A program made the position numbers and the translations under genes. A DNA stretch of 17,088 nucleotides, from assembly GCA_017429885.1 (NCBI GenBank), contig JAFROA010000019.1:1-17088 (forward strand). Direction: 5' to 3'. This document shows, one piece after another, positions 437-16,814 of the stretch (its first letter is position 1; each line of letters starts with the position of its first letter). The DNA is from Bacteroidales bacterium. GTDB taxonomy: Bacteria; Bacteroidota; Bacteroidia; Bacteroidales; UBA932. Under the pieces are notes generated by a model, which was not told the DNA's origin, did no database searches, and saw nothing but the letters and a program-made list of their open reading frames with translations.

Positions 437-787
437 ATGGCAACACGTGGAGATGTGGAGAAGTTTCTGGCTCAGTTCCAGATTAAGATGAGGGTGTACG
501 GCATCCTTTATAGGGATGACAGGGGGAAGAATCAGGAAGCGCTTGAAGAGCTTGAGATTGTCCCATCTTATGGAAGAGTGATTATCGAGAACCTGTCCGT
601 TGAAAACTATGTCCAAGGGCCGGTCATTGATGAACTTAACAGCCTCGGAGAAATGTGGGTATTTGGCAAAGATGTCAGGAAGCGTGAGGTGTACATCAAG
701 ATAATGCTTGGGGCGGAGGGCTGTCAGACAATCTGCATTTCATTCCATCTGGCTGAGCACAGATTGAGTTATCCATTCAAGAGATGA
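437..787 (+). CDS. MqsR-type toxin (putative mRNA interferase)
   Basis: This 116-aa protein resembles MqsR toxins, which are small RelE-fold ribonucleases that cleave mRNA. The diagnostic part is residues 71-116: GEMWVFGKDVRKREVYIKI, then CISFHLAE and a final YPFKR, matching the W..F......VYLKL...SF pattern of MqsR. Tyr86 and Lys88 fall, by eye, where E. coli MqsR has Tyr81 and the adjacent Lys. The protein is about 15 residues longer than E. coli MqsR because of a charged N-terminal stretch (RYDDR-like, 25-35). Its stop overlaps the start of the antitoxin by 4 nt (ATGA), so translation is probably coupled and the toxin comes first, the order known for mqsRA. An ATG at 427 is out of frame, so the start at 437 is preferred; no clear ribosome binding site is visible. 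Confidence 0.85.
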   Translation: MATRGDVEKFLAQFQIKMRVYGILYRDDRGKNQEALEELEIVPSYGRVIIENLSVENYVQGPVIDELNSLGEMWVFGKDVRKREVYIKIMLGAEGCQTICISFHLAEHRLSYPFKR

Positions 788-1752: not shown

Positions 1753-1762
1753 GAGGTCTTTC

Positions 1763-3283
1763 TTAGGAAATCAGCGAAACGATAAACCGGACGAACGGCT
1801 CTATCTCCTCCTCGACGCTGGCTTTCTCCAACGAAGCCATGTACTCATCACGACGCTCGACTGGAATCACAATCCAGGGATATCCACCGGTTACCAGCTG
1901 ACTATTCATCGTGAATCGAGCCGTACGTCCATTGCCATCCATGTACGGATGGATGTACACAAAGAAGAAATGCCCTAATACAGCACGAACGAAAGCATCC
2001 GGCTCTTCCAGCATCAACGAAGACAGGGCCGTCATCGCATCCAGCACAGCATCCGGATTAAGCGGAACGTGCATGGAATCTCTGATATACACCTGACTCG
2101 CACGATACCCTATAAGGTCCGAAGCCTTGATGATACCGGCCCGAACGCATGGTTCAAACAGCTGAAAATGCCAGCTCTGATGGTTCTTGACGTACATTTG
2201 GGCTGGATCCAGACCATCAAACGCATCCTTCACCGACTGCTTCAGGGATTGGTAGGCCTGATAGTACCCTCGAGCCGCTAAGGCATTCTTTCGCTCAATG
2301 TCGGCGGCGTCATTCTTAGGGTCCCAGTTCCCGCTTCTCACCTTCTCCAACAGGCCTTCCGTTATCTTGTACCCTTCGATTGACAAGGAGTTGTAACTGT
2401 CCTTAATATAAGTCGCGTCCATCTGGGCCAAAATACACTCCGGCGCCTGTTGCACAGGATGTATTCCGAAGGCCTCAATAGTTGAAACCACCTTCGGGCG
2501 CATCTTCATCCACATCAGGCGTAGGCGGGAAGCATACGGCGACGGCTCAAAACGATCCAGGCGAATGTCCTCTTCGAAAGGATTTTCCTCATGAATCGAA
2601 TAGCCAACCTGCTTCATCATCGTGATGAATTGGTCTGCCATCTCATCCCGGCCGATAGAACGAAGCGCGCCAGCTACCCTACCGGCGCGTGAAGTATACC
2701 CCCCATCTATCGCCGCTGTGACAACAGGGGTAACATCTCGAAGTGAAGCCAGACAAGTCCGGGCTTCCAGAGCATCGCGCCGATAGTAATCCGGCCCCAC
2801 CATAAGAAGCGCGTAAGCAAGCGGATACAGGTGAATGCCATAGTGAGACTCTACCTCAACAGACGGAGGTAGCGACGCCTTGATGTCCAAAAGAGATGTG
2901 CCGAACGGAAGCGCCAAGATGTTATTGGCCGCGGCGTCACTGCGGACAATCAATTGTCGAGGCACCACGCTTTTGCCGCTGTGGAAATAGAGTGACAACT
3001 CCGGAGACAGGCACCATTTTTCCCCGAACTTGCTATTCAGGTACGCGACTATGAAATGCCAGTACGACACATACCAGACGGTTGAGTCCCCTTCATGTCC
3101 CGGATAAGATGGGATGTACCATCCTTTAATGACTCTCTTGAGAAAGCCACTATTCATGAGCCGCTCTGTATGGGTGCGTCCCAGCGTATCAGCGCTATGG
3201 ATAACCAGGTTCTCACCGTGGGCATCCTGGTACTTTTTGAGTACAGCCATTGATTCTGCCTGCTTTTCTTGAATGGTTGCCAT
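1763..3283 (-). CDS. Fic family protein with AbiEi-like N-terminal region
   Basis: This 506-aa protein has two parts. The C-terminal part (about 285-506) is a Fic domain, which usually transfers AMP from ATP to a target hydroxyl. The active-site motif is complete at residues 445-456: HPYMDGNGRTAR, with catalytic His445 and phosphate-binding Arg453. An inhibitory helix motif S..x..EG is seen at Ser299-Glu303-Gly304, before the Fic core, which fits class II (intramolecular N-terminal inhibition). The N-terminal part (about 10-230) resembles AbiEi-type winged-helix antitoxin/regulators: THTERLMNSGFLKRVIKGWY (37-56) followed by the LSPELSLYFHSG segment (92-103). Its expected role is DNA binding or target recognition. 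The gene stands alone on the minus strand, convergent with the TA pair, with its own promoter region. Confidence 0.88.
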   Translation of the reverse strand: MATIQEKQAESMAVLKKYQDAHGENLVIHSADTLGRTHTERLMNSGFLKRVIKGWYIPSYPGHEGDSTVWYVSYWHFIVAYLNSKFGEKWCLSPELSLYFHSGKSVVPRQLIVRSDAAANNILALPFGTSLLDIKASLPPSVEVESHYGIHLYPLAYALLMVGPDYYRRDALEARTCLASLRDVTPVVTAAIDGGYTSRAGRVAGALRSIGRDEMADQFITMMKQVGYSIHEENPFEEDIRLDRFEPSPYASRLRLMWMKMRPKVVSTIEAFGIHPVQQAPECILAQMDATYIKDSYNSLSIEGYKITEGLLEKVRSGNWDPKNDAADIERKNALAARGYYQAYQSLKQSVKDAFDGLDPAQMYVKNHQSWHFQLFEPCVRAGIIKASDLIGYRASQVYIRDSMHVPLNPDAVLDAMTALSSLMLEEPDAFVRAVLGHFFFVYIHPYMDGNGRTARFTMNSQLVTGGYPWIVIPVERRDEYMASLEKASVEEEIEPFVRFIVSLIS

Positions 3284-3915: not shown

Positions 3916-5721
3916 TTATCTTCTGACAATTGTCGTGTACGAAGGGACATCGAATGTCTTAGATACTGTTTGACCCGAGGCCATATAGAGAGATCTCAAT
4001 GCATTATTATTCATAGGATTGCAATCCAGATACTGAAGATTCGGGTTTTTAGACACATCTAAAGAAGTCAGCTTATTATAATAGCAATACAGATTTGTCA
4101 AAGCCGTGTTCTTCGTCACGTCTAGAGAGGTCAACTGATTATAATAGCAATACAGGTATTCCAGCTTATTGTTCTTCGTCATGTCAAGAGATGTCAACTG
4201 GTTAAAATAGCATTGCAGGCCAGTCAACGCCGTGTTATGAGACACATTGAGAGTGGTAATCTTATTTGAACCACAATTCAGATATTGTAGCATCGTGTTC
4301 TTAGTCACGTCTAGAGCGGTCAACTGGTTATTGTAGCAATACAAAGAGGTCAGCGCCGTGTTCTTCGATACGTCAAGAGTGGTAATCTTATTAGAACCAC
4401 ACTCCAGAAATTGTAACGCCGTGTTCTTCGAAACGTCAAGAGCAGTCAATTGGTTACTATAGCAAGACAGTTGAGTCAACGCCGTATTATGAGACACATT
4501 GAGAGTGGTGATCTTATTTGAACCACAATTCAGATTTTGTAGCATCGTGTTCTTTGTAACGTCTAGAGCGGTCAACTGGTTATTGCTGCAAGACAGTTGA
4601 GTCAATACCGAGTTCTTCGAAACGTCTAGAGCGGTCAACTGGTTATCGTAGCAATACAAATCCCGTAGCTCCGTATTCTTCGAAATGTCGAGAACGGATA
4701 ATTGGTTATAATAGCAAGATAGTTGAGTCAATACCGTGTTCTTCGAAACAACAAGGGTAGTTAACTGATTCGCTCCACAATTCAGCCGTGTCAGAACGGT
4801 ATTATTTGACACATCAAGTGCTTTCAGCTGATTCCCAGAGCAGTACAGTGTTTGTAGTTTGACATTTCGGGAAAGGTCTAATGTTTTAATATTCCCCGGA
4901 TTATTAATCCGATACCATCGTGAGCCATCTTGATTAGTGCCTGATGACGTTGAGTAAGAATGCGTAACATTAAGAATAGTCAAGTTCACACAATACTCTA
5001 TTCCCTGAAGTGATTCTATCTCGCTGTTATTGGGGATTTGAATCGCATTCACTTTTTCTGCCTCCGAAACACTGATCTTCCCGTTCTTATTCAGGTCGAA
5101 GTTATTGAGCATGTACATCCGGAAGTTGGCATCGGGGAAGCTCACTTCTTCAGCGGTCACTGTCACTTTACAACTGGCGACGGAGCCACCATCCTTCGCC
5201 CGGGCATAGATTGTAACAACACCCTCAGTAATGGCGGTTACTTTACCGGATGAGCTGACAGTCGCGATCTTCTCATCACTGCTGGACCACGTGATAGTCT
5301 TATCGGTAGCATTATATGGCGATACTGTAGCTGAGAGTGTCAAAGACTCTCCTTCATTAATCGTAACCGATGTCTTGTCGAGTTGCACTCCTGTAACAGG
5401 AGTACTCGTGACTGTGACTTCACATGGCAGACTTGTCACTCCTTCAGTGGATGCCGTGATCTTCGTGACTCCGATTTTGTAGGCTTTGATTAATCCATTA
5501 CTCACCCCGGCAACCGTAGGGTCACTGCTTGACCATGTAATCCTCTCGTACTCTGCTCCAGAAGGTTCAACCGTTGCTGTTAACGTCTTTGTTTCCCAAA
5601 CTTTAAGAGTTACCGTATTCTCGCTCAGCCTGACACTCCCTACCTCCGGCAGCCATTGGCAGCCATATACAATTAAAAAGACGACTAATAAGAAAGGGCT
5701 ACTTTTGATATTAAGTTTCAT
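3916..5721 (-). CDS. BIG2 and leucine-rich repeat lipoprotein
   Basis: A 601-aa secreted, probably surface or periplasmic lipoprotein. The start at 5721 is chosen because it puts a clear lipoprotein signal at the N-terminus (hydrophobic residues 9-20, Cys21 after VYG) and follows the upstream stop by 4 nt; a start at 5751 would overlap the previous gene and bury the signal. Two BIG2 (Ig-like) domains span about 25-105 and 108-190, each with the ITWSSSD motif. A Ca-binding, dockerin/EF-hand-like loop DLNKNGKISVSEAE lies at 209-222. From about 289 there are 13 complete 21-residue leucine-rich repeats of the form L..L.C..NQLTALDVSKNT plus a degenerate one. A short non-repeat tail (581-601) ends the protein, with no obvious type IX sorting domain. 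A role in binding or adhesion is plausible; a ligand cannot be inferred. Confidence 0.88.
   Translation of the reverse strand: MKLNIKSSPFLLVVFLIVYGCQWLPEVGSVRLSENTVTLKVWETKTLTATVEPSGAEYERITWSSSDPTVAGVSNGLIKAYKIGVTKITASTEGVTSLPCEVTVTSTPVTGVQLDKTSVTINEGESLTLSATVSPYNATDKTITWSSSDEKIATVSSSGKVTAITEGVVTIYARAKDGGSVASCKVTVTAEEVSFPDANFRMYMLNNFDLNKNGKISVSEAEKVNAIQIPNNSEIESLQGIEYCVNLTILNVTHSYSTSSGTNQDGSRWYRINNPGNIKTLDLSRNVKLQTLYCSGNQLKALDVSNNTVLTRLNCGANQLTTLVVSKNTVLTQLSCYYNQLSVLDISKNTELRDLYCYDNQLTALDVSKNSVLTQLSCSNNQLTALDVTKNTMLQNLNCGSNKITTLNVSHNTALTQLSCYSNQLTALDVSKNTALQFLECGSNKITTLDVSKNTALTSLYCYNNQLTALDVTKNTMLQYLNCGSNKITTLNVSHNTALTGLQCYFNQLTSLDMTKNNKLEYLYCYYNQLTSLDVTKNTALTNLYCYYNKLTSLDVSKNPNLQYLDCNPMNNNALRSLYMASGQTVSKTFDVPSYTTIVRR
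4235..4590 (-). repeat. 252-bp higher-order duplication inside the LRR array
   Basis: The LRR units are 63 bp each. The stretch of about 100 bp beginning at 4239 recurs at 4491 with only a few differences, an offset of exactly 252 bp, or four LRR units. At protein level the order LDVTKNTM / CGSNKITTLNVSHNTA appears twice in the same positions. This points to recent duplication of a four-repeat block. Confidence 0.75.
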
Positions 5722-5725
5722 AGCA

Positions 5726-6448
5726 TTAGATATTTCTGACGAAATCTTCACGTATTATCACCTTGGAAATAAGGTCAATCTTATCGTTTTGACTAAGATT
5801 AATCCCGCATGATTGACTTAGATCTTTCCAGATAAAGTCGAGCAATTCTGCCTTATCTTTTTGTGGAACAATAATAAACTCAACATCTTCTGGTTTATAT
5901 AGAATCGGTGTTCCATACGAAGGTTTGATCGAACCGTTGCTCTGGTTATTTATGCAGCGGCTATCAGAATCGCTGAACCAGTCTTTAGTAGAATCGCCAA
6001 TTATCCTCCACTCGTTATCAAGATAATTACACTGTGCTTTATCCTTGATACTATAGTAAGGTTTAGAGATACCAAGGATTTCGTAGTCTTTAGGAGGATG
6101 ACCATTAAGAAATGCTTTTGATGCTTCAATAATCATCTTTGTTAATTTGCATCGAGAGTTATTTGGATAATAGATAACTGGCTGAAAATTAACTTTCCTC
6201 CATGCCCATTTCCTCTTATTCATCCCAAATCCATATTTTCTTTCATCTCGAAAGTCAATATAAGATATAGGTATATCGCAAAAGCATAACATTGGGATAC
6301 ATATTCCTCTCGTGTCACCTTTCTTTATATAGATATCCTCTATACAATGATACATCTTGAAACCCTCTTTCAAAATGCCCTTGACACTATCAAGAGAACG
6401 AGTAAAATGGAAAAAGGAGGAACTTATATAATTTCTTCTTGCAGCCAT
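5726..6448 (-). CDS. AbiGi-like protein (abortive-infection antitoxin family)
   Basis: This 240-aa protein resembles the AbiGi family (AbiG phage abortive infection, antitoxin component). The landmarks are SFFHFTRSLDSVKGILKEGF (11-30), IPMLCFCDIP (51-60), YGFGMNK (72-78), NFQPVIYY (87-94) and NEWRII (145-150), in the usual order. In AbiG, AbiGi is followed by the toxin AbiGii; here the next gene is an LRR lipoprotein and no AbiGii-like gene is visible. The H-F-T ... E-W-R layout also recalls ADP-ribosyltransferase-like folds such as DarT, but that is only an impression. The gene starts 19 nt after the barrel-protein stop and is clearly more AT-rich than the kinase genes upstream, which suggests separate acquisition. 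It is likely cotranscribed with its neighbours. Confidence 0.75.
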   Translation of the reverse strand: MAARRNYISSSFFHFTRSLDSVKGILKEGFKMYHCIEDIYIKKGDTRGICIPMLCFCDIPISYIDFRDERKYGFGMNKRKWAWRKVNFQPVIYYPNNSRCKLTKMIIEASKAFLNGHPPKDYEILGISKPYYSIKDKAQCNYLDNEWRIIGDSTKDWFSDSDSRCINNQSNGSIKPSYGTPILYKPEDVEFIIVPQKDKAELLDFIWKDLSQSCGINLSQNDKIDLISKVIIREDFVRNI

Positions 6449-6467: not shown

Positions 6468-8423
6468 TTAGAGACTTATTCCCAAAACCGGGGCGACGAT
6501 GGTGCCCATTGAGTTGTTGCTGCCACTGAAGGTGTTCAGGCCTGCCTTAAGGCCCAGGCAGAGGGCTGTGTTGCCGCCGAGGGATATCCGATATCCCATC
6601 ATTCCGGAGGCAGACATGCCAAATCCAAATTCGGGAGACCCGAAACCGACACCAGCGCGGCCTCCAAGGAGGAATGATCCCTTCTTTGCCGCAGACACGA
6701 AATACCGCGCGTCAACGAATCCTTGAACAACGGACATCCTTCCTCCGCTATAACTATCGTAGGCGGCCCCGCCTCCGATGAAGAAACCTGAATTTCCCAT
6801 CCAACCAAGTGTGGCGGAAAACTCCATGACCGTCCCTTTGAGCCAATAGGTGTTCCCGTCCCGGCTTGAGACAACTGATGTCGGACCGAAACCGTAAGGG
6901 ACGGCTTCCAAAACGAAGGCTAGTCGCCCAGACTTTGCCTTGGCCGGTTTCTCAACCGCAGGTTTTGGCTGGCTCTCCGGCACGGGAGCGACAGGAGCGA
7001 CCTGAGCGGGGATCTCTTCAACAACAGGGGTGGGGGCCACTTCAGGAATCGCTTCCAGTCCCTTTTCAAGGTAGTCCTTCGGATAATCAAAAGTCACCTT
7101 ATCCAGGATGTTGGCATATTCTTCAGAAGACCATGATAAAGAGCACCTATTCACAATCTCATCAAAGGAAAGCAATCCGACAGAAGCGAAAGGGACTGAC
7201 TTAGATTGGGCTAGCTCAGCTAAAGCATCCGCTTTTTCTTGAAGTTTGTCTGACTCTTCTTTACTCTTAACTGCGCCGCCGCGGCCAAAACGGGCGCAAC
7301 GAGCGGCCTTTTCATAGACTTTCGCAGCCATGTCTTCCGGGAGCTTGCCAAGATCCTTATTCAGAAGCGTCGTTTTAAGATAGGAATAAGCCTTATCAAA
7401 ATCTTTTGTCTCGACAGGGCTGACGCCATCGTAATACGCGATGCCTAACGCCGCTTGCGAGTACACGTCTCCCCGAGACGCGGCTTTCTCGAACAGTTCC
7501 AGGGCTTTCCTTGTGTCTTTTGCCGTACTGATTCCTTCATTGAAATAACAACCAAGGATATAATCCACCTTAGAACTCGTCCCTTCAAGCTTACTGTACA
7601 AATTGAAGGCCCTCTCCTGAAACACCCCGGTACCTGCTCCGGTCCTGTAACAATCGGCAAGGGCCTCAATTCCGACAGGGTCATTCTTTTCAGCCACTTT
7701 TCCGAAAAACTTGAAAGCCTCCACCTCATTCTTTCCCACACCCTCACCGTGGTAATACATTCCACCAATTAAGGCCAACGACTGAGGGATTCCGGCATCA
7801 GCGGCCACTCTCAAATAGTCGAACGCCTGGCTAGGGTTTTGAATGAATCGCGAACCTAGCAAAGCGGACGCTTCCGGTAATCCAAACTCATGAAGATCTT
7901 TTAATAATTGAACAGACTTCTTCTCGTCTTGAGTGATGCCCAGCGACGGGTTTCCTTCCGCATAATTCTTCGCATAAAGCAGTTTGGCGAAAGGATAGTC
8001 TCTCTCAAAAGATCTACCTACATAGTCAAAAATCACAGTTTGATCAAAATTCCTATCAGAACAAACCTGCGCGAGAACCCAAGCGGCAAGACCGTCTCCC
8101 GCCCCAGCGGCCTTTTGCCCCCACTGCCAAGCGTTGTAGAGATCTTTACTCGTCCCTATCCCGTTTCTTGAAAGGTACGTGACCATGGCCTCCGCGGGAG
8201 CATATTCCTTTTCCGCGGATCGGAGGAACCAGTAATAAGCGGATTTCTCGTTATTCTCTCCCCCTTTCTTCAAACAGGAGAATCCCAACTCGTACATCGC
8301 CTCCAGATCCCCTTTTCTGGCCATATTCAACAGCGCTCTCTCGTCATTCTGAGCCGACGCGATGACGGGGATTGACGCGATCGCGATAAATAAGCATAAT
8401 ATTTTATTCGATTTCATAAGCAT
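6468..8423 (-). CDS. Exported Sel1-repeat protein with C-terminal putative outer-membrane barrel
   Basis: This 651-aa protein begins with a signal peptide (hydrophobic 8-22, cleavage expected after ASA at 24; a second Met at residue 3 is an alternative start). Residues about 30-400 are a series of Sel1/TPR-like helical repeats, with cores such as AMYELGFSCLKKG, SLALIGGMYYHGEGVG and SQAALGIAYYDGV. A proline-rich linker follows (about 460-497). Residues 500-651 alternate hydrophobic and glycine-rich strands (FFIGGGAAYDSY, SFLLGGRAGVGFG, LCLGLKAGLN) and end in VLGISL, which is typical of small outer-membrane beta-barrels, though the terminal residue is Leu rather than Phe. The likely arrangement is a periplasmic Sel1 solenoid tethered to an outer-membrane barrel. 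It starts 3 nt after the TM-kinase gene, whose periplasmic tail also looks Sel1-like, so the two may interact. Confidence 0.8.
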   Translation of the reverse strand: MLMKSNKILCLFIAIASIPVIASAQNDERALLNMARKGDLEAMYELGFSCLKKGGENNEKSAYYWFLRSAEKEYAPAEAMVTYLSRNGIGTSKDLYNAWQWGQKAAGAGDGLAAWVLAQVCSDRNFDQTVIFDYVGRSFERDYPFAKLLYAKNYAEGNPSLGITQDEKKSVQLLKDLHEFGLPEASALLGSRFIQNPSQAFDYLRVAADAGIPQSLALIGGMYYHGEGVGKNEVEAFKFFGKVAEKNDPVGIEALADCYRTGAGTGVFQERAFNLYSKLEGTSSKVDYILGCYFNEGISTAKDTRKALELFEKAASRGDVYSQAALGIAYYDGVSPVETKDFDKAYSYLKTTLLNKDLGKLPEDMAAKVYEKAARCARFGRGGAVKSKEESDKLQEKADALAELAQSKSVPFASVGLLSFDEIVNRCSLSWSSEEYANILDKVTFDYPKDYLEKGLEAIPEVAPTPVVEEIPAQVAPVAPVPESQPKPAVEKPAKAKSGRLAFVLEAVPYGFGPTSVVSSRDGNTYWLKGTVMEFSATLGWMGNSGFFIGGGAAYDSYSGGRMSVVQGFVDARYFVSAAKKGSFLLGGRAGVGFGSPEFGFGMSASGMMGYRISLGGNTALCLGLKAGLNTFSGSNNSMGTIVAPVLGISL

Positions 8424-8426
8424 TCA

Positions 8427-10268
8427 TTATTTCCATCCTGGGTCAACTACATCTTCCTCATAGTAACCTTCTTTTCTCAATTTAACCACCACAGGGGTCC
8501 CCTTAGCTTGACCAGCTTTTTGGGCATAAGCATGAGCGGAATCATAGTCAGTCGCGATATAACAATATTGAGCATAACGATAGCACGCCTCCTGATCACC
8601 GGCGTCAGCCAATTGTTTGACTCTAGTCCAGTCATTTCGGTTGATTGCCGCCTCCAAAGTGTTGTCATTCTCTGCCTTCTCGAGCCGGGCTTTCTCCGCG
8701 GCCGCTTCTTTTTCTTTCTTTTCTTTTGCTAAACGATCTTCTTCCTTATTCTGCCCCGATGGTTTTTCTTTAATAGCTGTTTTCTCGTTCTGAGATGAGT
8801 CTTGGACAATCTCAGCAGGAACGGTCTGTTGAGTATCTGCCGGTTCAAGGACGTTATGATCAACTATTCCTTCACTCTCATCAATCGCTTGAACACTTTC
8901 TTTGACTATTCCCTTGTTATTCCAAGGCTTCCAAACAAATAGAACTCCAGCCGCCGCCAATAGAGCGATCGATAGCATGATGAGTCCACTTATGCCGGTG
9001 CCCTTCTCCTTAGTGGCCGCCGCCGCTCTTGCGGCTTTCGCGGCTTTCGCGGCTTTCGCGACCTCGATCCGCTTGGCCTTCTCTGCCTCTTTAGCTTTTC
9101 GGGCTTCCTCAGCCGCCTTACGGGCGGCCTCCTTGCGGGTGCGTTCTTCCTCTTCCTTGCGCTTACGCTCTTCCTCGGCAGCCTTGCGGGCAGCCTCCTT
9201 CCGGGCGCGCTCCTCCTCTTCCTTGCGCCTCCGTTCCTCCTCAGCCGCCTTGCGGGCAGCCTCTTCCTTCTGACGTTTCTCCGCCTCTTCGCGAAGACGC
9301 TGCTCTTCCCGGCGCCGCCGTTCTTCCTCTATCGCTTTCTGACGAGCCTCCTCAGCCCTTTGCTCCTCCAATTTCCTCCGACGTTCAGCCTCTGCTCTCA
9401 ACCTTTCATCCTCTTCCCTTTTCCTCCTCCAGGCATCTTCCCAGGGTAAATAGACAGAACGCCCTGACAGGACATCTGAAGCATACCAATCAAGATCGTC
9501 AGCTTTAGGCCTTTCCCAAGTGTCCTTGGATAAACAGGCGGCTACCGTGGATTTAAGGCTATCCGACCACTGTCCCTTAAGATCCGGAGTCTCACCACCA
9601 TGAAGCTGAATAACACCCCCTTGGCCGAAGAAAGGTAACTCTCCTTCCAACAGCTCATACATAGTGGCGCCCAAAGCCCAAATATCCGTCGCTTTAACAG
9701 CGGACGCGTCGCTTGAGAACATCTCAGGACCCATATACCCGATAGTTCCTTGAGTCGTACTTTCGGACAAATCCCTTACAGAGTTTCTCCGCAACGTGCT
9801 TCTCATCTTCACGCTAACGCCGAAATCCGATATCAGGAAATCTCCTTGCGGATCCCTTAGAATGTTGTCAGGCTTGATGTCCCGATGGATAATATCTTTT
9901 GAGTGGAGATACGCGAGACCAGCGCTAACATCTTTAATGAATTTCCAGGCGTCTTCTTCCGTGATTCTCCCGATGAGCTCGTTCGCCGACAACGGGCAAT
10001 ATGGCATCACTAGATAAGGCCGTTTCTCGACCACATCAAAATGTGAGGCATGAAGAAGATTGGGATGATTGAGGTTGAAAGCCGTCCTGAACTCAGACTT
10101 AAACTCGTTTATCCCGCGGGTGTCCAGGGCGATGTATATCTTTAAGGCCACCTCCATGTCAAGAATGTCGTCCCAGGCTTGCCAGACCTCACCGAAGGTT
10201 CCTCGTCCACGTTCAGAAACCAGCCGATAGCGTCCGTTTATGACTTCTCCTTCTTTGAGTGTCATCAT
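8427..10268 (-). CDS. Transmembrane Ser/Thr protein kinase with long charged helix and periplasmic Sel1-like tail
   Basis: A 613-aa Hanks-type kinase. The kinase domain (about 14-265) has the glycine loop GRGTFG (21-26), Lys43, HRDIKPDN (128-135), DFG (148-150) and GTIGYMGPE (174-182), so it should be active. The activation segment (151-173) is rich in Ser, Thr and Arg. Residues about 280-418 are almost wholly Glu, Arg, Lys and Ala, predicted as a very long helix. One transmembrane segment follows (about 427-446), then a periplasmic region with a second charged stretch (506-534) and a Sel1-like helical pair (537-590, ACYRYAQYCYIATDYDSAHA). The start overlaps the phosphatase stop by 4 nt (ATGATGA), so kinase and phosphatase are probably translationally coupled. 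The topology suggests it senses or signals across the inner membrane. Confidence 0.9.
   Translation of the reverse strand: MMTLKEGEVINGRYRLVSERGRGTFGEVWQAWDDILDMEVALKIYIALDTRGINEFKSEFRTAFNLNHPNLLHASHFDVVEKRPYLVMPYCPLSANELIGRITEEDAWKFIKDVSAGLAYLHSKDIIHRDIKPDNILRDPQGDFLISDFGVSVKMRSTLRRNSVRDLSESTTQGTIGYMGPEMFSSDASAVKATDIWALGATMYELLEGELPFFGQGGVIQLHGGETPDLKGQWSDSLKSTVAACLSKDTWERPKADDLDWYASDVLSGRSVYLPWEDAWRRKREEDERLRAEAERRRKLEEQRAEEARQKAIEEERRRREEQRLREEAEKRQKEEAARKAAEEERRRKEEEERARKEAARKAAEEERKRKEEEERTRKEAARKAAEEARKAKEAEKAKRIEVAKAAKAAKAARAAAATKEKGTGISGLIMLSIALLAAAGVLFVWKPWNNKGIVKESVQAIDESEGIVDHNVLEPADTQQTVPAEIVQDSSQNEKTAIKEKPSGQNKEEDRLAKEKKEKEAAAEKARLEKAENDNTLEAAINRNDWTRVKQLADAGDQEACYRYAQYCYIATDYDSAHAYAQKAGQAKGTPVVVKLRKEGYYEEDVVDPGWK
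9112..9265 (-). repeat. 66-bp tandem repeat encoding the kinase charged helix
   Basis: The sequence for ARKAAEEE recurs at 9112, 9178 and 9244, a 66-bp (22-residue) period, inside the Glu/Arg/Lys/Ala-rich region of the transmembrane kinase. Copies differ mostly at single bases. The repeat can change in copy number without breaking the frame and would then alter helix length. Confidence 0.75.
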
Positions 10269-11377
10269 TCTTCTCCCTTTATGGATATGCTCACCTCTTC
10301 CTCAACCTGCTCAGGATCATGATTCTGGCCAAAGCATCCTCGGACAAGGTATGCGGCCAGGCAAAGGATTCCGACCGCCGCTATCAAAGCGACCACTCGA
10401 AGGATAGCTCGAAGCCATTTTCTCATGCCGCCCCTCTTAGGCCTGTCTGACTCGGCAGGACTCTCCTCCTCAACATCAATCGGCTTTTCATCAGGGCCAG
10501 CGGTCTCTGACACGTTTTCTTTGTCAGGCTCCTCCCCATCAGTGATCTCACACAGGACGGCTGTCACGTTATCGTGCCACTCGGCGGCCTCGGCCGCTTT
10601 CCAAAGAGCGGCGCGACAGGCGCTCATAGACGCGCGATTGGCGCTGATGATCTGCCCCATCTCATCGTCATGGAGCACGCCGCTTAAGCCGTCACTGTTC
10701 AGAAGAAATATGTCCCCTTTGAACATTTGGACTGAGACAGAGTCGGCGACCGCCTTCTTACTCGTGTCTCCAAGGCTCCGGGTTATGATGTTATTGTACG
10801 GATGGATAAAAGCCTCTTCCGCCGTAATCTTACCATTGTCAACTAGTTCCTGGACATAAGAGTGATCCTTAGACAACTGCTTCAGGCCATCGGGCTCGCG
10901 ATAAAGATATATCCTGCTGTCACCAAGCCAAGCCAAGGAGGCTTCAGTCCCATGAAGCCAGGCCATGACGATAGTGCTGCCCATACCCTCACATTCAGGG
11001 TGATCCTTAGCATGTTTCTTGATCGCCTCGTCCGCCAAGGTGACGACCTTTTTGAGATACTTCTCCCTGCCATCAGAATTCTCCATCGCATAGTGTGGCA
11101 CATTCTCCTTTGAAAATGCCACCTTGACGATGTTAATGGCTATTTCCGACGCCACCTCTCCGGCGTTCATACCACCCATCCCATCAGCGACAACCAGGAG
11201 ACATCCATATTCTGTCAGAATCATCTCCTTGTCGGACTCGAAAAGGGCGGCATCCGTGTCAGCTCCAAGGTCGGCATTGACGAACATATTGTCCTCATTG
11301 CCGCTCCTCGGTGCCTCAGGATTGTATCTTCCGGCCGCGTCAGTGTAAGCGGCCAGCTTGAACTTGACTTGCGTCAT
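10265..11377 (-). CDS. Membrane-anchored PP2C-type Ser/Thr phosphatase
   Basis: This 370-aa protein is a PPM/PP2C metal-dependent phosphatase, expected to remove phosphate from Ser/Thr residues placed by the two operon kinases. All family motifs are present: NED (27-29), ADGMGG (64-69) with metal-binding Asp65, GMGST (131-135), GDSR (152-155), SDG (228-230) and HDN (268-270). After the catalytic domain (about 5-279) comes an acidic linker (280-312) and one transmembrane helix (about 323-345), then a short acidic tail. The catalytic domain is thus cytoplasmic at the membrane, like the downstream kinase. It overlaps both neighbours by 4 nt (ATGA), the tightest coupling in the operon. Confidence 0.93.
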   Translation of the reverse strand: MTQVKFKLAAYTDAAGRYNPEAPRSGNEDNMFVNADLGADTDAALFESDKEMILTEYGCLLVVADGMGGMNAGEVASEIAINIVKVAFSKENVPHYAMENSDGREKYLKKVVTLADEAIKKHAKDHPECEGMGSTIVMAWLHGTEASLAWLGDSRIYLYREPDGLKQLSKDHSYVQELVDNGKITAEEAFIHPYNNIITRSLGDTSKKAVADSVSVQMFKGDIFLLNSDGLSGVLHDDEMGQIISANRASMSACRAALWKAAEAAEWHDNVTAVLCEITDGEEPDKENVSETAGPDEKPIDVEEESPAESDRPKRGGMRKWLRAILRVVALIAAVGILCLAAYLVRGCFGQNHDPEQVEEEVSISIKGEE

Positions 11378-12210
11378 TTTTTATTCGTTTTCTTGGTTTT
11401 CTTTTCCTGCTTCGGAGTGGCTGGGACCAGCTTTGGCTTATCCTCTGAAAGAACTGGAGTCTCAATTGGATTGTCAATCATGATTATCCTCCATCCCTCG
11501 GGACCGTTGTCAAGAAATCCAAGTATTTCAAAATGAATAGTCCCCGCAGAAGGATACGTGGGTTTGATGAATACGCCGCCGATTGCCCCTTCAGGAGCGG
11601 TTTTACCAGTCATGCTGACAATAGTGGAGTCTGCATGCTGTCCATAAGCATTAATCGATAGTATATTCTCTTTCTTAGACAGCCAAACCACAAAACCATC
11701 GACTTTTTCGCTCCAACCTCCAACCATTAGTCCTTCAGAAACATCGGATGAGACTTCGACTACCTCATAAGATGTCATCGGTATTTGTTTGTGGGTCTTA
11801 ATAATCGGGACTGTAGTGGGCTTGAATACAGAATCTCCAGGAGAGAGGATCTCCGAGGAAGAGATAACCGGAGTCATTCCGGGGAATTTCTTGACATCAT
11901 TGTTGCCGAACCATGGAGTAGCCACATTTACGGGAGCGATCCAACCTCCTTTGGTCTTGACACAGAACCCCTCAGCGACACCGAAGAAGTCCTTGTCCTC
12001 AACATTGAACTTCTCGTGGGACAAGGTGTCTTCAAGCTGGTATTTCAGGCGCATGACGCAAAGAGCGTCCTTCATCGCCGAGACAACCATATTCTGGCTC
12101 TCTGAAGTGACAGAGGGCCTCACTCTCGGGAAAATCTGGGCTTCTGCCCGGGACATGCCCGCGAGAAGCGCGAGACATGTGATAATCAGTCCTTTAACAA
12201 ACGGTCTCAT
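11374..12210 (-). CDS. Exported protein of unknown function
   Basis: I do not recognise this 278-aa protein. It has a clear signal peptide (hydrophobic 8-18, cleavage expected after AEA at 24) and so should be periplasmic. The middle (about 75-245) looks like a compact beta-rich domain, with GFCVKTKGGWIAPVNVATPW (81-100), VDGFVVWLSKKENILSI (170-186) and GAIGGVFIKP (208-217). The C-terminal 25 residues are rich in Lys, Pro and Thr and lack a membrane anchor. The GFCVKTKGGW...GAIGGVF arrangement faintly recalls a trypsin-fold protein without catalytic residues, which is only a guess. It lies 2 nt after the FHA-protease gene and overlaps the phosphatase start, so a role with those envelope proteins is likely. 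Confidence 0.8.
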   Translation of the reverse strand: MRPFVKGLIITCLALLAGMSRAEAQIFPRVRPSVTSESQNMVVSAMKDALCVMRLKYQLEDTLSHEKFNVEDKDFFGVAEGFCVKTKGGWIAPVNVATPWFGNNDVKKFPGMTPVISSSEILSPGDSVFKPTTVPIIKTHKQIPMTSYEVVEVSSDVSEGLMVGGWSEKVDGFVVWLSKKENILSINAYGQHADSTIVSMTGKTAPEGAIGGVFIKPTYPSAGTIHFEILGFLDNGPEGWRIIMIDNPIETPVLSEDKPKLVPATPKQEKKTKKTNKK

Positions 12211-12212
12211 GA

Positions 12213-13748
12213 TTAATAAATAGCTGCTATCGGGACAATGATTCCAATGTTTCTTCCTGCGCTCATCGAGACTATTCCTACCGCCACAAGATTGCCGGAA
12301 GAATCCCTGGCAAGGACAGGACCGCCTGAATTACCACTCTCATAATTGGTGTTTGTGGTCACGATGCCACCGTTCTGAAGACCATTGACGGCAACTGTGG
12401 CATTCCCATACACAGGAGAGATACCACGTGATGAGGCCCCAAGTCCAAGAGGGAATCCAAGGACAGTCAGTTCGGTCATTCTCTCGAGATTGCAACTAAG
12501 TTTCGCGTCAGGAACGATAGGGCCGGACTTACCGAAAATCATATAAGCATAATCAAGGTGCTGAAGGCTATAGTCAGCCAACGAGACCTTGTAACCCTCA
12601 TCATCGGTGTCGTGGAGGTCGTGGGACCGGTTCATGATCATCTGGTCGCTCGTGAACCTGACATTATCTCCTGTCGAAGTGGCGCCAAGGAAGTGCGCGA
12701 CAACTTTCCCGCCGTTATTAACAAGAAGATTCAGCTCATATAACTCTTTATCAATCTCACCTCCTGCCATCCAATATGACCATCCTTCAATGACATGCCT
12801 TGCCGTGACAAAACGTCCGTCTGAAAGGAGAAAACCTGTCCCAGTCCACCCTGGAACTCCAGGTTCACCGCACTTTAAATACGCTGATTTCCCATCAGGG
12901 GTAGTGATATCGAATCCTTCTGTGTAGATAAAATAGATGCCAGGCACAAGAGCGTCAATCGCCTCGTTAAGTGTCTTATTCCCAGACATATCCGGGGCTG
13001 GGCCAGGTGTGTACTCTGTCTTGCCCGCTTTCTGGAGCTCCGCGACTTTTCGAGTGGTGCTAGAGAGCTGGCTTGAGATAGCCTGATTCTTTTTCTTCAA
13101 TTCAGCTACAACTTCCTCGTTCTTGGCCTTCTCCTCCTCCTGCTGCTGAGTCAATTGCTCAATGGCTTGATTCGCGTCGATGAGCTTACTGTTCGACTGG
13201 TGAAGAAGCCATCCGCCAACAGCGCACGCCGCGACCAGGAGAGCCAGCAGGCAACACAACGCTGTCTTGTAAGGTCTCAAAGCCTGTTTGCGGAACAGGG
13301 ACAGGCGGTTTGTTAGGCCAATCGACTTGACTAATCCCTCATTGCCCTCAGGCGCGACGAAGCCGAGTTTAGGGCCGTTGGTTGAAAGTTGGATCTCATC
13401 TCCGTTCTGGAGATACCAGCTGGTCTCCACCTTATTCCCGTTCAGATAGGTCGAGTTAGTCTTGGACAATTGGATGAGTTTCCAACCATTCCCTTCTTTG
13501 ACGATGGCCGCGTGACGACGGCTCACCGTCGTGAAAGACTCGTCGAAACGGACCTGGCACTTGGGGTCGCGCCCCAACTCCACGCTGTCGATAATGATCT
13601 TCTGGACAGCGCCTTCCTGATGGTACTTGCTCCTTGTCTTGTGCACAAGCTCATAATACCTGCGGCCTTTTCCCGCGAAAACGGATTTGACACCCGCTCC
13701 AACCGATCCCGCGAAGGATCTTTCATATTTAACTGTTTGCTGTGACAT
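12213..13748 (-). CDS. FHA domain - transmembrane - trypsin-like serine protease
   Basis: This 511-aa protein joins a phosphothreonine reader to a protease. The N-terminal FHA domain (about 35-132) keeps its key residues: GR (59-60), SRRH (76-79) and NSTYLNG (98-104). One transmembrane helix lies at about 163-183, followed by a coiled coil (about 188-240). The C-terminal trypsin-like domain (about 265-511) has a GTGFLLSDGRFVTARHV segment (303-319) with His318, Asp399 in HLDYAYM, and Ser474 in SGNSGGP (471-477), so the catalytic triad is complete. The FHA part should face the cytoplasm and the protease the periplasm. This is HtrA/DegS-like in layout but without a PDZ domain. Substrate unknown; binding of phosphorylated kinase or other partner through FHA is the likely control. 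It is 16 nt from the FHA-kinase gene upstream. Confidence 0.9.
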   Translation of the reverse strand: MSQQTVKYERSFAGSVGAGVKSVFAGKGRRYYELVHKTRSKYHQEGAVQKIIIDSVELGRDPKCQVRFDESFTTVSRRHAAIVKEGNGWKLIQLSKTNSTYLNGNKVETSWYLQNGDEIQLSTNGPKLGFVAPEGNEGLVKSIGLTNRLSLFRKQALRPYKTALCCLLALLVAACAVGGWLLHQSNSKLIDANQAIEQLTQQQEEEKAKNEEVVAELKKKNQAISSQLSSTTRKVAELQKAGKTEYTPGPAPDMSGNKTLNEAIDALVPGIYFIYTEGFDITTPDGKSAYLKCGEPGVPGWTGTGFLLSDGRFVTARHVIEGWSYWMAGGEIDKELYELNLLVNNGGKVVAHFLGATSTGDNVRFTSDQMIMNRSHDLHDTDDEGYKVSLADYSLQHLDYAYMIFGKSGPIVPDAKLSCNLERMTELTVLGFPLGLGASSRGISPVYGNATVAVNGLQNGGIVTTNTNYESGNSGGPVLARDSSGNLVAVGIVSMSAGRNIGIIVPIAAIY

Positions 13749-13764
13749 ATGTGATTATTGTTTA

Positions 13765-15036
13765 TTAATATCCTTCAACCCTTAGTTTGACATCCCCGAT
13801 GGATATGATATCCCCAGGTTTGAAAGGGACGCCGTACCGGTCCGCCTCCCTTGAATTGACGTAGGTACCATTGAGGGAGTCCCTCCAACGGCCTCCGAGC
13901 AACTGGCCGTCCCTTATGTACCACTGCCCTGAAAGAGGATCCTTCTCAAGAGTGCAGTGGTGACGGGAAATGTATTTGCTTGATTCCTCGAGAACCGGGA
14001 TCTGATTATGAGTCAGCTCGTCATCCCTGCCCATAGTGAGGGTAAGCCGTCCTCCGAGCAGACGGTCAAGGTAATAGACCTTCCCATAATCCTCGCCTTG
14101 CATTATTCTCAGCAGAGTGCCGTTGACAACCGGATGGAAAGAATCAACCGAGGGTTCCCTTGCGGGGATCCCTGTGGCGGGAAGCTTTTCCATCACTTCT
14201 TTCGTGGTCTGGATCCTATGATGGAAATCGGGCCTGAGGCATCCTTCGATAACAGGCCCCCACACTCCGGAATTGTCCGCAAGTTTCAAAGCTTCCCTGT
14301 CCCATCTCCCGTCCTTACCGTTCTGAAGATAACGCGGAAGGGTGTTCTCGTTCAACTCTCCGAAAGGCAGTTTCCCGACGATCAGCTCGTACATCAGAAC
14401 GCCGAAAGAGAATATGTCGGTCGTGGGCAGGACGGTCGCCTGCCCTCCCCTAGGCGGATTGACCTGCTCCGGAGGCATATATGGGAATGTCCCGAATATC
14501 TGCTGAGGCTTTCCCATGAAGCCGCGCTCGGTCATCCTTTTGTTCTGGTCGCCGGATATTCCGAAATCTGTCAGGACAGCCGAGGTGTCTTCACGGAGGA
14601 GGACGTTCTCCGGCTTGAGATCCCTATGGACCTTCCCCCTTGAATGAAGCGCGCCCAATCCGTTAAGGATGTCCCGGGCAACAGCCACTTGGTTGACCTG
14701 ATGGGTCTTCGAATAGTCCCGCAGGTCTCCGAGCGGACAATATTCCATCTGAATGTAGGGATTGCCGTTCACCTCGCCGTAGGAGAATGAGTGTACCAGA
14801 TTGGGGCTGTCAATCAGGCCGGTGTTGTATTCCATCACGAAACGCTCCCTGAGCTTCTCGTGATGGTCAGGAGATATGGCCCACAATTTCAAGAGTTTAA
14901 GGGCATATTCCCGGGAATCCCGTCCGATCACTTTATAGACTATTCCGAAAGCACCGTTCCCGAGGATCCTCTGGACCTTGAAACCGGGGCCGATCACGTC
15001 ACCGACGCCGAACTCGCATCTTTGCGCAACGGGCAT
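13765..15036 (-). CDS. Soluble Ser/Thr protein kinase with C-terminal FHA domain
   Basis: A 423-aa cytoplasmic Hanks-type kinase. The kinase domain (about 18-285) has GNGAFG (26-31), Lys47, HRDLKPEN (137-144), DFG (157-159) and the MPPEQ form of the APE motif (187-191), so it should be active. The C-terminal FHA domain (about 313-420) has GR (336-337), SRHH (357-360) and NGTYVN (389-394), all intact, with an insert before the NGT loop. No transmembrane segment is present. A kinase that carries its own FHA can bind its autophosphorylated form or its substrates. It starts 12 nt after the zinc-ribbon/FHA gene and precedes the FHA-protease. Confidence 0.93.
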   Translation of the reverse strand: MPVAQRCEFGVGDVIGPGFKVQRILGNGAFGIVYKVIGRDSREYALKLLKLWAISPDHHEKLRERFVMEYNTGLIDSPNLVHSFSYGEVNGNPYIQMEYCPLGDLRDYSKTHQVNQVAVARDILNGLGALHSRGKVHRDLKPENVLLREDTSAVLTDFGISGDQNKRMTERGFMGKPQQIFGTFPYMPPEQVNPPRGGQATVLPTTDIFSFGVLMYELIVGKLPFGELNENTLPRYLQNGKDGRWDREALKLADNSGVWGPVIEGCLRPDFHHRIQTTKEVMEKLPATGIPAREPSVDSFHPVVNGTLLRIMQGEDYGKVYYLDRLLGGRLTLTMGRDDELTHNQIPVLEESSKYISRHHCTLEKDPLSGQWYIRDGQLLGGRWRDSLNGTYVNSREADRYGVPFKPGDIISIGDVKLRVEGY

Positions 15037-15048
15037 GTGAATAAGTGA

Positions 15049-15687
15049 TTAGACTTTGAACACAAACCTTCTGTTTCCGAGGACAATCACATCACCGTCA
15101 GCGATTTCCATCTTTCTGCCGGCATGGACAAATGTACTGTGCTGGGCACTCTTGTCCTCGATGAACCATTTCCCGTTCTCCAAAGTGATCTCCGCCTGTG
15201 TTTTGGACGTGATTGTGTTATTGGCCGGATCGGTGTTCTCTCTCCTGAGTTCCACCTTCTCTCCGGCATAGTTCATAGCCGGGATCTCCCCTTGCTCATT
15301 ATCCCACGCGACTGGCTGGAGTTTGAACGTCTTTCCGGAGTTTGGATTGCTCCAGGGGTTCACGGTCGAGTCATACTTGGAAGCGGCTCCGGCCATTGGC
15401 GGAGGGGCGATGAAAGGCGCACCATCTGCGGCCTGCTTGAAAAACTCCTTACCGCAGTTAGGGCAACGGACTGATCCTTCCCTGATCGGGAATCCGCACT
15501 CAGGGCATGTGTTGGGGTCTTCTTTCGGGGCGATGGGAGCCTGTCCCTCACGGACTGTAGACTTGACATCCACAGGCTCTTGTGCCGGCGTTGGGGAATA
15601 GACTGGTTGGCCTGCCAGGGGACTGTTACATTTCTCGCAACGCTGAGCCCCTTCGGGGTTCTCCCAACCACAATTGGTACATCTCAT
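15049..15687 (-). CDS. Double zinc-ribbon protein with degenerate FHA domain
   Basis: This 212-aa cytoplasmic protein is the first gene of the operon. The start at 15687 is preferred over 15738 because it puts the first zinc ribbon directly at the N-terminus. Two zinc ribbons are seen: Cys3/6/17/20 and Cys61/64/75/78, each CxxC-x10-CxxC, joined by a proline-rich linker. The C-terminal region (about 120-212) has the shape of an FHA domain: RENTDP, ITLENGKWFIEDKS, then ADGDVIVLGNRRFVFKV. Key pThr-binding positions are changed: the SxxH motif reads SKTQ and the NGT loop reads HST. It may be a scaffold or a protein-interaction FHA that does not read phosphate. There is no membrane segment. Confidence 0.85.
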   Translation of the reverse strand: MRCTNCGWENPEGAQRCEKCNSPLAGQPVYSPTPAQEPVDVKSTVREGQAPIAPKEDPNTCPECGFPIREGSVRCPNCGKEFFKQAADGAPFIAPPPMAGAASKYDSTVNPWSNPNSGKTFKLQPVAWDNEQGEIPAMNYAGEKVELRRENTDPANNTITSKTQAEITLENGKWFIEDKSAQHSTFVHAGRKMEIADGDVIVLGNRRFVFKV

Positions 15688-15995
15688 GATAGGTGGTACT
15701 ATTTCGCGGCTGGCTCCAACGGTCGCGGTTTTAAACAAAGAAAGTGTGGAGCATTCCGTCTATCTGTTCTGAGGCTCTGGACTGCCTTAACCCAAATAAA
15801 CAATACTCCACACCCGTATGGCATCGCGCGGATCGCGCGGGGCTGTCATACAAGGTGATGAATGTCTTGCTTATCCCTGGGTTATGAAATTGTCCAGATC
15901 TCAGAACAAGGATGAAGCGGTTACACTTTCATCAAATATGTCTGTCAGACGTAAGACGCCTAACTTCACAAATATAATGAAAGTATCATTACATT
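15688..15995 (-). promoter_or_regulatory. Intergenic leader/promoter region of the kinase operon
   Basis: This 308-nt gap between rhuM and the zinc-ribbon gene has no convincing gene. On the minus strand TATATTTG (15976-15969) is a perfect -7 element, but no TTTG is found at the expected -33 distance; a start there gives a leader of about 275 nt. TTTATTTG (15800-15793) is a weaker second candidate. An inverted repeat, GTGTGGAGCATT at 15744-15755 and AATACTCCACAC at 15802-15813 (one mismatch in 12), could be an operator or a leader stem. Confidence 0.4.
15744..15813. repeat. Inverted repeat in the kinase-operon leader
   Basis: GTGTGGAGCATT (15744-15755) and AATACTCCACAC (15802-15813) are reverse complements except for one base, separated by 46 nt. 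They lie 57-126 nt before the first start codon of the operon. Neither arm is part of the 45-bp or 52-bp dispersed repeats. Confidence 0.6.
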
Positions 15996-16814
15996 TTACG
16001 GGTGCGGGGCAATTATTTTCAATAGTTTCTCTATACCGACCGAGTCTAGACGGGAAAAAGCGAATACCTTCTTTCCCAAATCCTTAAGTGATGCGCCAAG
16101 ATGATAGATGTCATCATCAATGATCAAGAAACGGTCATGTACATTATTTATCGAAAGAATATCTATCGGAGCATACTGGGCATTGTATTTTTGAATATCA
16201 AGACACGACATCGAAGACTTGTTTGATGTGTAGATTGACGCTGTCACACCTGCTCTCCTTTTAGCCAGAATGTGAAGAATTGAGTCATCCACATAGTTGT
16301 CGATCAAGACTACTGACCTCTTCGCGCTCTTTATCAAATCACAAGCGAACACATATGCGTCAAAAATCTGTCCGTCATAGATTATCCTTTCTTCGTTAAC
16401 GGTCGTCCTCCTCTCCAATTCCTCGAGTCTGCGACCAATAGCGTAGCCCCGTGTCAGACAGTCTTTCAATATCGAATTAGCCCATCGACGAAATTGTACA
16501 CCTCGAGATGATTTGACTCGAAAGCCAACCGAGATAACCATCTCAAGATTGTAGTATTCAACCATTCTTGTGACTTTTCTTCCTCCCTCTTGTTGAACTG
16601 TCGCAAATTTTGCGACAGTTGACATATCTTTCAATTCCTCATTAAGAGCATTGTCGATATGTTTCCCTATAGTTTTCACATCTCTTGAGAATAGGCTGGC
16701 CATCTGCATACGAGTTAACCAAACAGTCTCGTCTCCAACACGGACCTCCAACCTGATTGTCTCATCTGGATTAAAAACCGCCACTTCCCCTTTCGCGCTC
16801 AAAATGTCATTCAT
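15996..16814 (-). CDS. RhuM family protein with PLD-like C-terminal domain
   Basis: This 272-aa protein has a RhuM domain at about 10-130, shown by VWLTRMQMASLF (31-42), FSRDVKTIGKHI (42-53), YYNLEMVISVGFRV (87-100) and GVQFRRWANSILK (105-117). The C-terminal part (about 150-265) resembles the phospholipase-D-like fold, with VVLIDNYVDD (168-177) and HDRFLIIDDDIYHLGASLKD (226-245). The HxK(x4)D motif appears as HDR...D (His226, Arg228, Asp233), so Lys is replaced by Arg and only one motif is present. RhuM was named from a Salmonella pathogenicity island and such proteins often sit beside restriction-modification or other defence genes; the biochemical role is unsettled. It is separated from the kinase operon by 308 nt and appears to have its own promoter. 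Confidence 0.85.
   Translation of the reverse strand: MNDILSAKGEVAVFNPDETIRLEVRVGDETVWLTRMQMASLFSRDVKTIGKHIDNALNEELKDMSTVAKFATVQQEGGRKVTRMVEYYNLEMVISVGFRVKSSRGVQFRRWANSILKDCLTRGYAIGRRLEELERRTTVNEERIIYDGQIFDAYVFACDLIKSAKRSVVLIDNYVDDSILHILAKRRAGVTASIYTSNKSSMSCLDIQKYNAQYAPIDILSINNVHDRFLIIDDDIYHLGASLKDLGKKVFAFSRLDSVGIEKLLKIIAPHP

Follow-up and report, generated by a model that had tools for sequence, protein, structure and literature searches.

Seven tightly packed minus-strand open reading frames (ORFs) at positions 6468-15687 of a Bacteroidales contig (JAFROA010000019.1; its whole 17,088 nucleotides are called the window here) include six, genes A to F, which are a conserved unit by the evidence of related sequences. 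We read this unit, with a probability of about 0.5, as a modular trans-envelope system of Ser/Thr phospho-signalling and proteolysis, in which a phosphorylation switch would gate a protease-pseudoprotease pair encoded by genes C and D. That it signals, and does so across the envelope, are predictions from sequence and structure models; the direction of the signal and its output we infer. An earlier note on this DNA had described seven packed genes with much the same domains, and ORFs, Pfam matches and coordinates all agree with it: each ORF was found at the position given, and the gaps calculated from the coordinates, in the order A to G, are 12, 16, 2, -4, -4 and 3 nt.

The gene set and its predicted topology

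15049-15687, minus strand: gene A, double zinc ribbon and FHA-like domain, putative cytoplasmic adaptor (Pfam, cysteine conservation)
13765-15036, minus strand: gene B, soluble Hanks-type kinase with a C-terminal FHA domain (Pfam, residue conservation)
12213-13748, minus strand: gene C, cytoplasmic FHA domain, transmembrane (TM) segment 164-182, probable coiled coil and periplasmic trypsin-like protease (Pfam, hydropathy, residues)
11374-12210, minus strand: gene D, predicted exported PA-clan (HtrA/3C-like) pseudoprotease
10265-11377, minus strand: gene E, PP2C phosphatase with a C-terminal TM segment (Pfam, NCBIfam, Asp residues, hydropathy)
8427-10268, minus strand: gene F, Hanks-type kinase with a single TM segment and a periplasmic tail (Pfam, residues, hydropathy)
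6468-8423, minus strand: gene G, predicted periplasmic Sel1 solenoid (about 30-430) and eight-stranded outer-membrane barrel (499-650), in a variable sensor or anchor slot

Pfam recognized the zinc ribbons of A with a weak FHA match (22.4 bits, cut-off 20.7), Pkinase (2.6e-38) and FHA (1.1e-11) in B, FHA (8.9e-16) and Trypsin_2 (5.2e-11) in C, PP2C (8.2e-16) in E, Pkinase (1.6e-41) in F and Sel1 (8.1e-26) in G; its scan of D gave no match. For E, the NCBIfam model Stp1_PP2C scored 201.7 bits, under its cut-off of 230. In gene A the longest ORF would begin with TTG at 15738; translation more likely starts at the ATG at 15687, giving MRCTNCGW, as assumed in the earlier note.

Hydropathy places TM segments at 164-182 in C, 324-342 in E and 426-444 in F, none in A or B, and a signal-like segment at 8-26 in G; a second, weaker hydrophobic stretch in C (487-505) falls within the protease domain. 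The N-terminus of D resembles a signal peptide by eye, its hydropathy score lying below threshold. C, E and F are thus each predicted to span the inner membrane once, and F is likely a receptor kinase. Because TM segments occur in C, E and F and not in A and B, the kinases, the phosphatase and the FHA domains are predicted to be cytoplasmic, and the C protease, the tails of E and F, D and G to lie beyond the inner membrane. This topology matches the cytoplasm-to-outer-membrane chain that had been proposed for the operon.

Conserved functional residues and a probable pseudoprotease

Judged by alignments of relatives, both kinases, the phosphatase, two of the three FHA domains and the protease of C keep their functional residues, the roles of which are those known for each family. 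The kinase of B retains K47, H137, D139, N144 and D157 in 70/70 rows, and that of F H128, D130, N135 and D148 in 92/92 and K43 in 91 of them; the five Asp of the PP2C motifs are kept in all 74 rows of E. The FHA domain of C has R60, S76 and N98 in 77/77 rows, and that of B has R337 in 67/70 and S357 and N389 in 70/70. The catalytic triad of C comprises H318 (74/77), D399 (76/77) and S474 (76/77). Each of the eight cysteines of A is present in 66-69 of 69 rows.

Gene D had been noted earlier simply as an exported protein. Its N-terminus is compatible with export; what had been overlooked is the fold, modelled as a PA-clan double beta-barrel of the HtrA/3C-like (chymotrypsin-like) kind. With catalytic columns placed by sequence rather than by superposition, Ser occupies its column in 0/64 rows and His its own in 2/64. 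D is therefore probably a pseudoprotease, a PA-clan fold with a ruined active site. A single sequence match of D in the PDB (E 0.71) was taken as chance.

The protease of C (by Pfam and NCBIfam) and D (by its model) share the fold of HtrA, DegS and DegP, which raises another explanation: an outside-in envelope stress response, in which a DegS-like C, activated by periplasmic damage, would cleave D, or else the tail of E or F, and thereby alter cytoplasmic kinase output. The grouping of both proteins with HtrA-like proteases speaks for it, as does a C that spans the membrane with a cytoplasmic reader, and the protein in the slot after F is often a BACON or barrel protein. PDZ is the sensor of DegS, yet Pfam finds no PDZ domain in C or D; C is instead fused to a cytoplasmic FHA domain, D looks inactive, and no sigma or anti-sigma factor matched among the scanned window proteins. 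We consider a DegS-like response unlikely.

A six-gene unit conserved across relatives

A search for C relatives in a single genome of each species yielded at least 80 loci, 79 titled Bacteroidota and one labelled Clostridia; the 80 were picked through six exact peptide patterns of C and are hence biased to close relatives. Read in six frames, the neighbours of C are strikingly constant. We measured synteny in the 48 loci, chosen by C alone, whose flanks extend for 3.5 kb or more before C and 5.5 kb or more after it, calling genes by a longest-ORF rule and defining a run as genes on the same strand with gaps of at most 600 nt; one locus (L054), in which no C remained after gene calling, was left out. 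B shares a run with C in 46 of the 48 loci, A in 45, E in 47, F in 44 and D in 41. A, B, C, E and F all fall in one run in 43/48 and all six genes in 37/48. The commonest order, ABCDEF, occurs in 26 of the 79 loci with a called C and, with an extra F, in nine more, and the median gaps are 6 nt for A-B, 22.5 for B-C, 11 for C-D, 3 for D-E and 8 for E-F.

The reverse test gave the same association. A profile of D matched 8 of 149 family genomes, each time beside C on the same contig. A was likewise found in 8/149, all of them C carriers and seven with A on the contig of C; in the eighth, A stands with B and three closely spaced F kinases on a separate contig (L124:6100-12889). Full-length C occurs in 9/149. 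Some loci taken in addition are contigs already among the 80 (for example, L102 is L021 and L103 is L025). The expectation that these genes would travel together is thus borne out for A-F, whereas G, counted in the earlier note as a seventh member, sits in a variable slot.

Weak matches at the edge of the family were also seen. Four further family genomes matched only the FHA half of C, and five loci of the same family (L010, L011, L013, L016 and L018) have weak C FHA-type matches next to further PP2C and kinase genes, which may amount to another kinase-phosphatase-FHA cluster, distinct from this one. B, C or both are split into two ORFs in L096 (7685-10568), L090 (5625-6922) and L110, which may reflect gene decay or faults of assembly.

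A variable slot and variable kinase tails

G was modelled as a Sel1 solenoid (about 30-430) followed by an eight-stranded barrel (499-650), and is predicted from this model to join a periplasmic solenoid to the outer membrane. Elsewhere its slot holds other proteins. Of 95 accessory proteins found, 83 were scanned, and of these 26 matched BACON, seven OMP_b-brl_2 and five WG, with TPR, LRR and PEGA among the others, and an N-terminal hydrophobic segment is present in 50 of the 95. The periplasmic tails of F vary as well (62 scanned of 68 chosen), with RHS in four, BACON in two, MORN in two and an FGE-sulfatase domain in one.

Comparison with known systems

The six-gene set has no name in Pfam, PADLOC, NCBIfam or the open-licence PubMed Central (PMC) literature searched, and the earlier note's view that no named system has this composition stands in those sources. 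Its choice of parallels, PpkA-PppA-Fha and the TerY triads, fared less evenly: the absence of a vWA protein from the window was confirmed, and the closest system by kinase-kinase-phosphatase content, KKP, had been overlooked.

KKP is the nearest known system by composition. As described in the available part of PMC11341870, KKP (PfkA-PfkB-PfpC) belongs to Pf prophages, with clusters reported in Bacteroidetes also, and shares with our operon two Hanks-type kinases, one with an FHA domain, and a PP2C phosphatase. An anti-phage role of this type would have the phosphatase restrain two toxic kinases until a phage product blocks it and the kinases stop growth, with protease and barrel as accessory sensors. 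Besides this composition, the patchy distribution of the genes (below) and the RhuM, AbiGi-like, Fic and SocA-like neighbours in the window fit such a role. Against it, the cold-shock domain (PF00313) of the kinase that defines KKP in that part of the paper is absent from F and from the 20 families in 62 F relatives at 0.001. The membrane topology and protease pair are foreign to KKP, as far as the same source describes it: the zinc-ribbon-FHA protein, FHA-TM-trypsin protein, pseudoprotease, TM phosphatase and outer-membrane slot all go beyond it. Protein C, the only one searched, matched none of 50,697 phage records (tblastn) or 72,556 plasmid records and had no relative in viral contigs; carriage by phages or plasmids was rejected on this basis, though an unrecognised prophage may still be the carrier. 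In the flanks of relatives, 99 proteins (of 110 found) gave matches at 1e-15 to just seven PADLOC families, each with at most two members, a count made with no background control; on these few matches, unlike the window's own neighbours, a defence-island setting was rejected. One flank protein (in L019) is a CHAT-domain protein. Defence of the KKP type is, on this balance, rather improbable. We take the system for a variant within the known kinase-phosphatase-FHA kind, and there is a fair chance that it merits a separate class.

The two parallels drawn earlier are looser. In the threonine phosphorylation pathway of the type VI secretion system (T6SS), PpkA, PppA and Fha, a kinase, a PP2C phosphatase and an FHA reader, control a trans-envelope assembly; the same three parts recur here, and we know of no protease pair as part of that pathway. 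TerY triads combine a kinase, a PP2C phosphatase and a vWA protein, and resemble the operon in kinase, phosphatase and zinc ribbon; the vWA domain had no Pfam match among 14 window proteins. A survey of conflict systems covers actinobacterial kinase, PP2C and vWA neighbours as well as trypsin-based systems, and the available part of it (PMC7159879) does not describe the six-gene set.

By architecture, the only level compared, the operon also recalls the Agl-Glt gliding machinery of Myxococcus, which the available part of PMC3169522 describes as an FHA-TM protein, TPR proteins, a barrel and a TolQR-like motor. Shared are the FHA-TM-periplasmic protein, the repeat proteins and the outer-membrane barrel; the same part describes no kinase, phosphatase or protease, and the motor has a possible counterpart in some relatives (c7/c8, below) and none in the window. 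Other comparisons were more distant. The PASTA repeats of PknB/Stk1 are missing from F and 62 F relatives (NCBIfam PknB_PASTA 155.3 bits, cut-off 450); the ZorA/ZorB motor of Zorya had no match among the scanned window proteins; and the MAD6 kinase of MADS defence (NCBIfam) scored 123.5 bits with F and 112.9 with B, its cut-off being 460.

A motor-like pair and candidate invertible promoters

Some relatives carry a pair, c7/c8, made of a coiled-coil membrane protein and a MotA/TolQ/ExbB protein. One or the other was called in 14 of the 84 loci of the C tree, including both loci outside the order, and in 10 of the 11 such loci among the 80 it lies within two genes of C. c8 matches MotA_ExbB (7.4e-15), and the similarity of the pair to ZorA/ZorB is weak and distant. 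Such a protein, its coiled-coil partner or both were seen at the C loci L022, L028, L030, L043, L047, L061, L063, L067, L071, L082, L098, L099, L100, L101, L110, L115 and L116. The pair was rejected as a clade marker: it changes six times on the C tree, four of the changes being forced by starred branches, against 8.9 expected when shuffled, and because of these six changes it appears to have been lost or moved repeatedly. A short FHA-TM protein, c5, is another addition (16/48 loci).

This pair could be the engine of an energy-driven envelope machine under phospho-regulation, as the threonine pathway acts on T6SS or the FHA protein in Agl-Glt, the window version having lost its engine or borrowing another. 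The c8 match and its weak ZorA likeness, the recurrence of the pair and the combination of parts in Agl-Glt (available part of PMC3169522) speak for such a machine; still, the window lacks the pair, and 70 of the 84 tree loci gave no call for it. TssC (VipB) was found in 0/17 carrier genomes (completeness 90% or more in 12) with a Pfam model that matched one of 14 named control genomes, E. coli, and whose sensitivity for Bacteroidales TssC is unchecked. Altogether, we regard an envelope machine as improbable.

Upstream of A, four loci have a tyrosine recombinase (cluster c13) 268-353 nt before the longest A frame, and five, these four and L026, have inverted repeats of 15-20 bp, 147-181 nt apart. 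Within each repeat segment a TAnnTTTG box, 28-30 nt in from the left arm's outer end, points away from the operon; no box toward the operon was found inside the five segments, and L028 has a second reverse box. The candidate invertible promoter segments, recognized by repeats and -7 box, are:

L028:3717-3903
L057:6623-6837
L068:6665-6864
L081:1779-1964
L026:508-697

Repeats and box in this layout are those of invertible promoters in Bacteroidales, so by sequence the five relatives likely carry an invertible promoter upstream of A that is OFF in all five assemblies. Inverted-repeat arms of at least 15 occur upstream of 5/78 A genes against 7/558 other genes, both sets including repeated contigs and the repeat listed for L026 not being the -7-box pair. 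Eight more stretches from related genera, examined for the ON orientation, gave no new repeat; L120, L121 and L122 among them repeat L032, L024 and L028, and some start only at A. In L025, a pair of 14 bp repeats 308 nt apart was taken for chance.

These segments would suit phase-variable surface control, in which the important product would be the slot protein, with the phospho-module as its regulator. That all four loci with the recombinase have the repeats around a -7 box favours it; the low count in a redundant set, the single orientation and the lack of any inverted repeat of this kind in the window make it a very remote explanation.

Distribution and possible transfer

Across the order, 7 of 247 genomes matched C at 1e-20, and across the phylum 3 of 296, the window's own genome being included in each count; for three genera the counts were 6/158, 3/111 and 1/93, each including the central carrier. 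The two matches outside the order (L100 and L099) keep E and F, and one also keeps A and B. A protein search gave at least 2350 clusters at E <=0.001 among at least 7997 scored candidates, and the family is therefore large.

The tree of 84 C proteins, built by a quick method with a midpoint root and taxon labels from metagenome bins, mixes families, placing Barnesiella beside Bacteroides and Bacteroides with Muribaculaceae, which suggests transfer. The locus titled Clostridia (L081) has as its nearest neighbour, across short branches, the Bacteroidales locus L068, as a mislabelled bin or a recent transfer would be.

Surroundings of the operon in the window

Two features precede gene A:

15969-15976, minus strand: Bacteroidales-type -7 box TATATTTG, candidate operon promoter (motif search)
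15742-15815, minus strand: stable hairpin in the leader with a T-rich stretch after it, resembling a terminator or attenuator (minimum free energy -35.3, z -4.57)

The Bacteroidales -7 consensus is TAWWTTTG, and the box is its sole minus-strand match in the window; the four matches on both strands, against 2.31 expected, are weak evidence alone. The same genome has a second copy of A, 70% identical (L123:2728-3539, G000:C80), followed by the start of B (DNA alignment), which is cut off where the 3.5 kb contig ends, and neighboured by genes for a glycoside hydrolase and a GlcNAc 2-epimerase. A -7 box lies upstream of this copy too, despite different upstream genes, and a similar stem precedes it (z -5.20). 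The hairpin has no Rfam match. A conserved leader RNA (riboswitch or attenuator) was rejected: z, approximated by shuffles that kept two-base blocks, falls below -3 in 17/58 A leaders and 18/69 control intergenic regions, which is no enrichment.

Downstream, an AbiGi-like gene (5726-6448) starts 19 nt past G and is overlapped by the gene for a Big_2 and leucine-rich-repeat (LRR) protein; the operon transcript may continue into it. The AbiGi-like protein has no relative in the 80 loci (phmmer, 1e-4). The Big_2-LRR surface protein (3916-5751) lies in DNA of low GC (0.40-0.44), and L062 has a related LRR protein downstream of the cluster. Around the operon, SocA/MqsA-like, Fic, AbiGi-like and RhuM genes (784-3283, 5726-6448 and 15996-16814) resemble a defence or mobile region. 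Such genes are few in the flanks of relatives; a RhuM gene adjoins the operon in L045.

Discussion

How might the parts of a phospho-signalling and proteolysis switch work together? Sensing the state of the envelope or surface would fall to the slot protein, an outer-membrane or periplasmic protein that varies between loci and is G here, together with the tail of F in the periplasm; F, with B, would raise cytoplasmic phospho-threonine. This mark would be read by FHA domains, those of B and C at the least, and gathering of C through its own cytoplasmic FHA domain may gate its protease in the periplasm, with the dead relative D holding or blocking that protease, A serving as adaptor and E resetting the switch. 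The output would be the regulated cleavage of a surface or periplasmic protein.

Several observations weigh against this scheme. D was not called in 15 of the 84 tree-set loci, although one of these (L071) has D in the six-frame reading and lost it to the gene-calling rule; therefore the C-D pair cannot be essential everywhere. Nor is the case for D firm: hhalign aligned D with C at a probability of only 40%, covering D residues 38-106, Foldseek matches of D had low TM-scores, and a His lies within two columns of the expected site in 11/64 rows and an SG near the Ser site in one. The active-site His of C is Arg in 3/77 rows, with Asp lost in one and Ser in one. The writers, eraser and readers of Ser/Thr phosphate named in the earlier note hold up for the kinases, the PP2C and the FHA domains of B and C; the FHA domain of A keeps Arg in 68/69 rows and Ser in 63/69 and, because the usual Asn is present in only 5/69, may not bind phosphate. 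At the outer membrane, G was found in only 6 of the 80 relative loci, and 45 of the 95 accessory proteins have no N-terminal hydrophobic segment by our simple rule.

Searches of the open-licence PMC literature yielded nothing on Ser/Thr phospho-signalling in Bacteroidales. To our knowledge the subject is little described, and known kinase-phosphatase-FHA modules act in the cytoplasm or on secretion machines. We tentatively suggest, as a possibility short of an even chance, a new Bacteroidales-wide signalling system in which an FHA-protease and a pseudoprotease would turn cytoplasmic Ser/Thr phosphorylation into periplasmic proteolysis, with exchangeable outer-membrane sensors and, in some lineages, MotA/ExbB-type channel power and invertible-promoter switching. 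The A-F unit offers concrete, testable parts, with relatives in the named strain records of Barnesiella sp. An22, Odoribacter laneus YIT 12061 and Palleniella intestinalis PINT. If our reading is true, these bacteria, which are common inhabitants of animal guts, would have in this unit a switch that works from the inside to the outside of a two-membrane envelope, or the other way.

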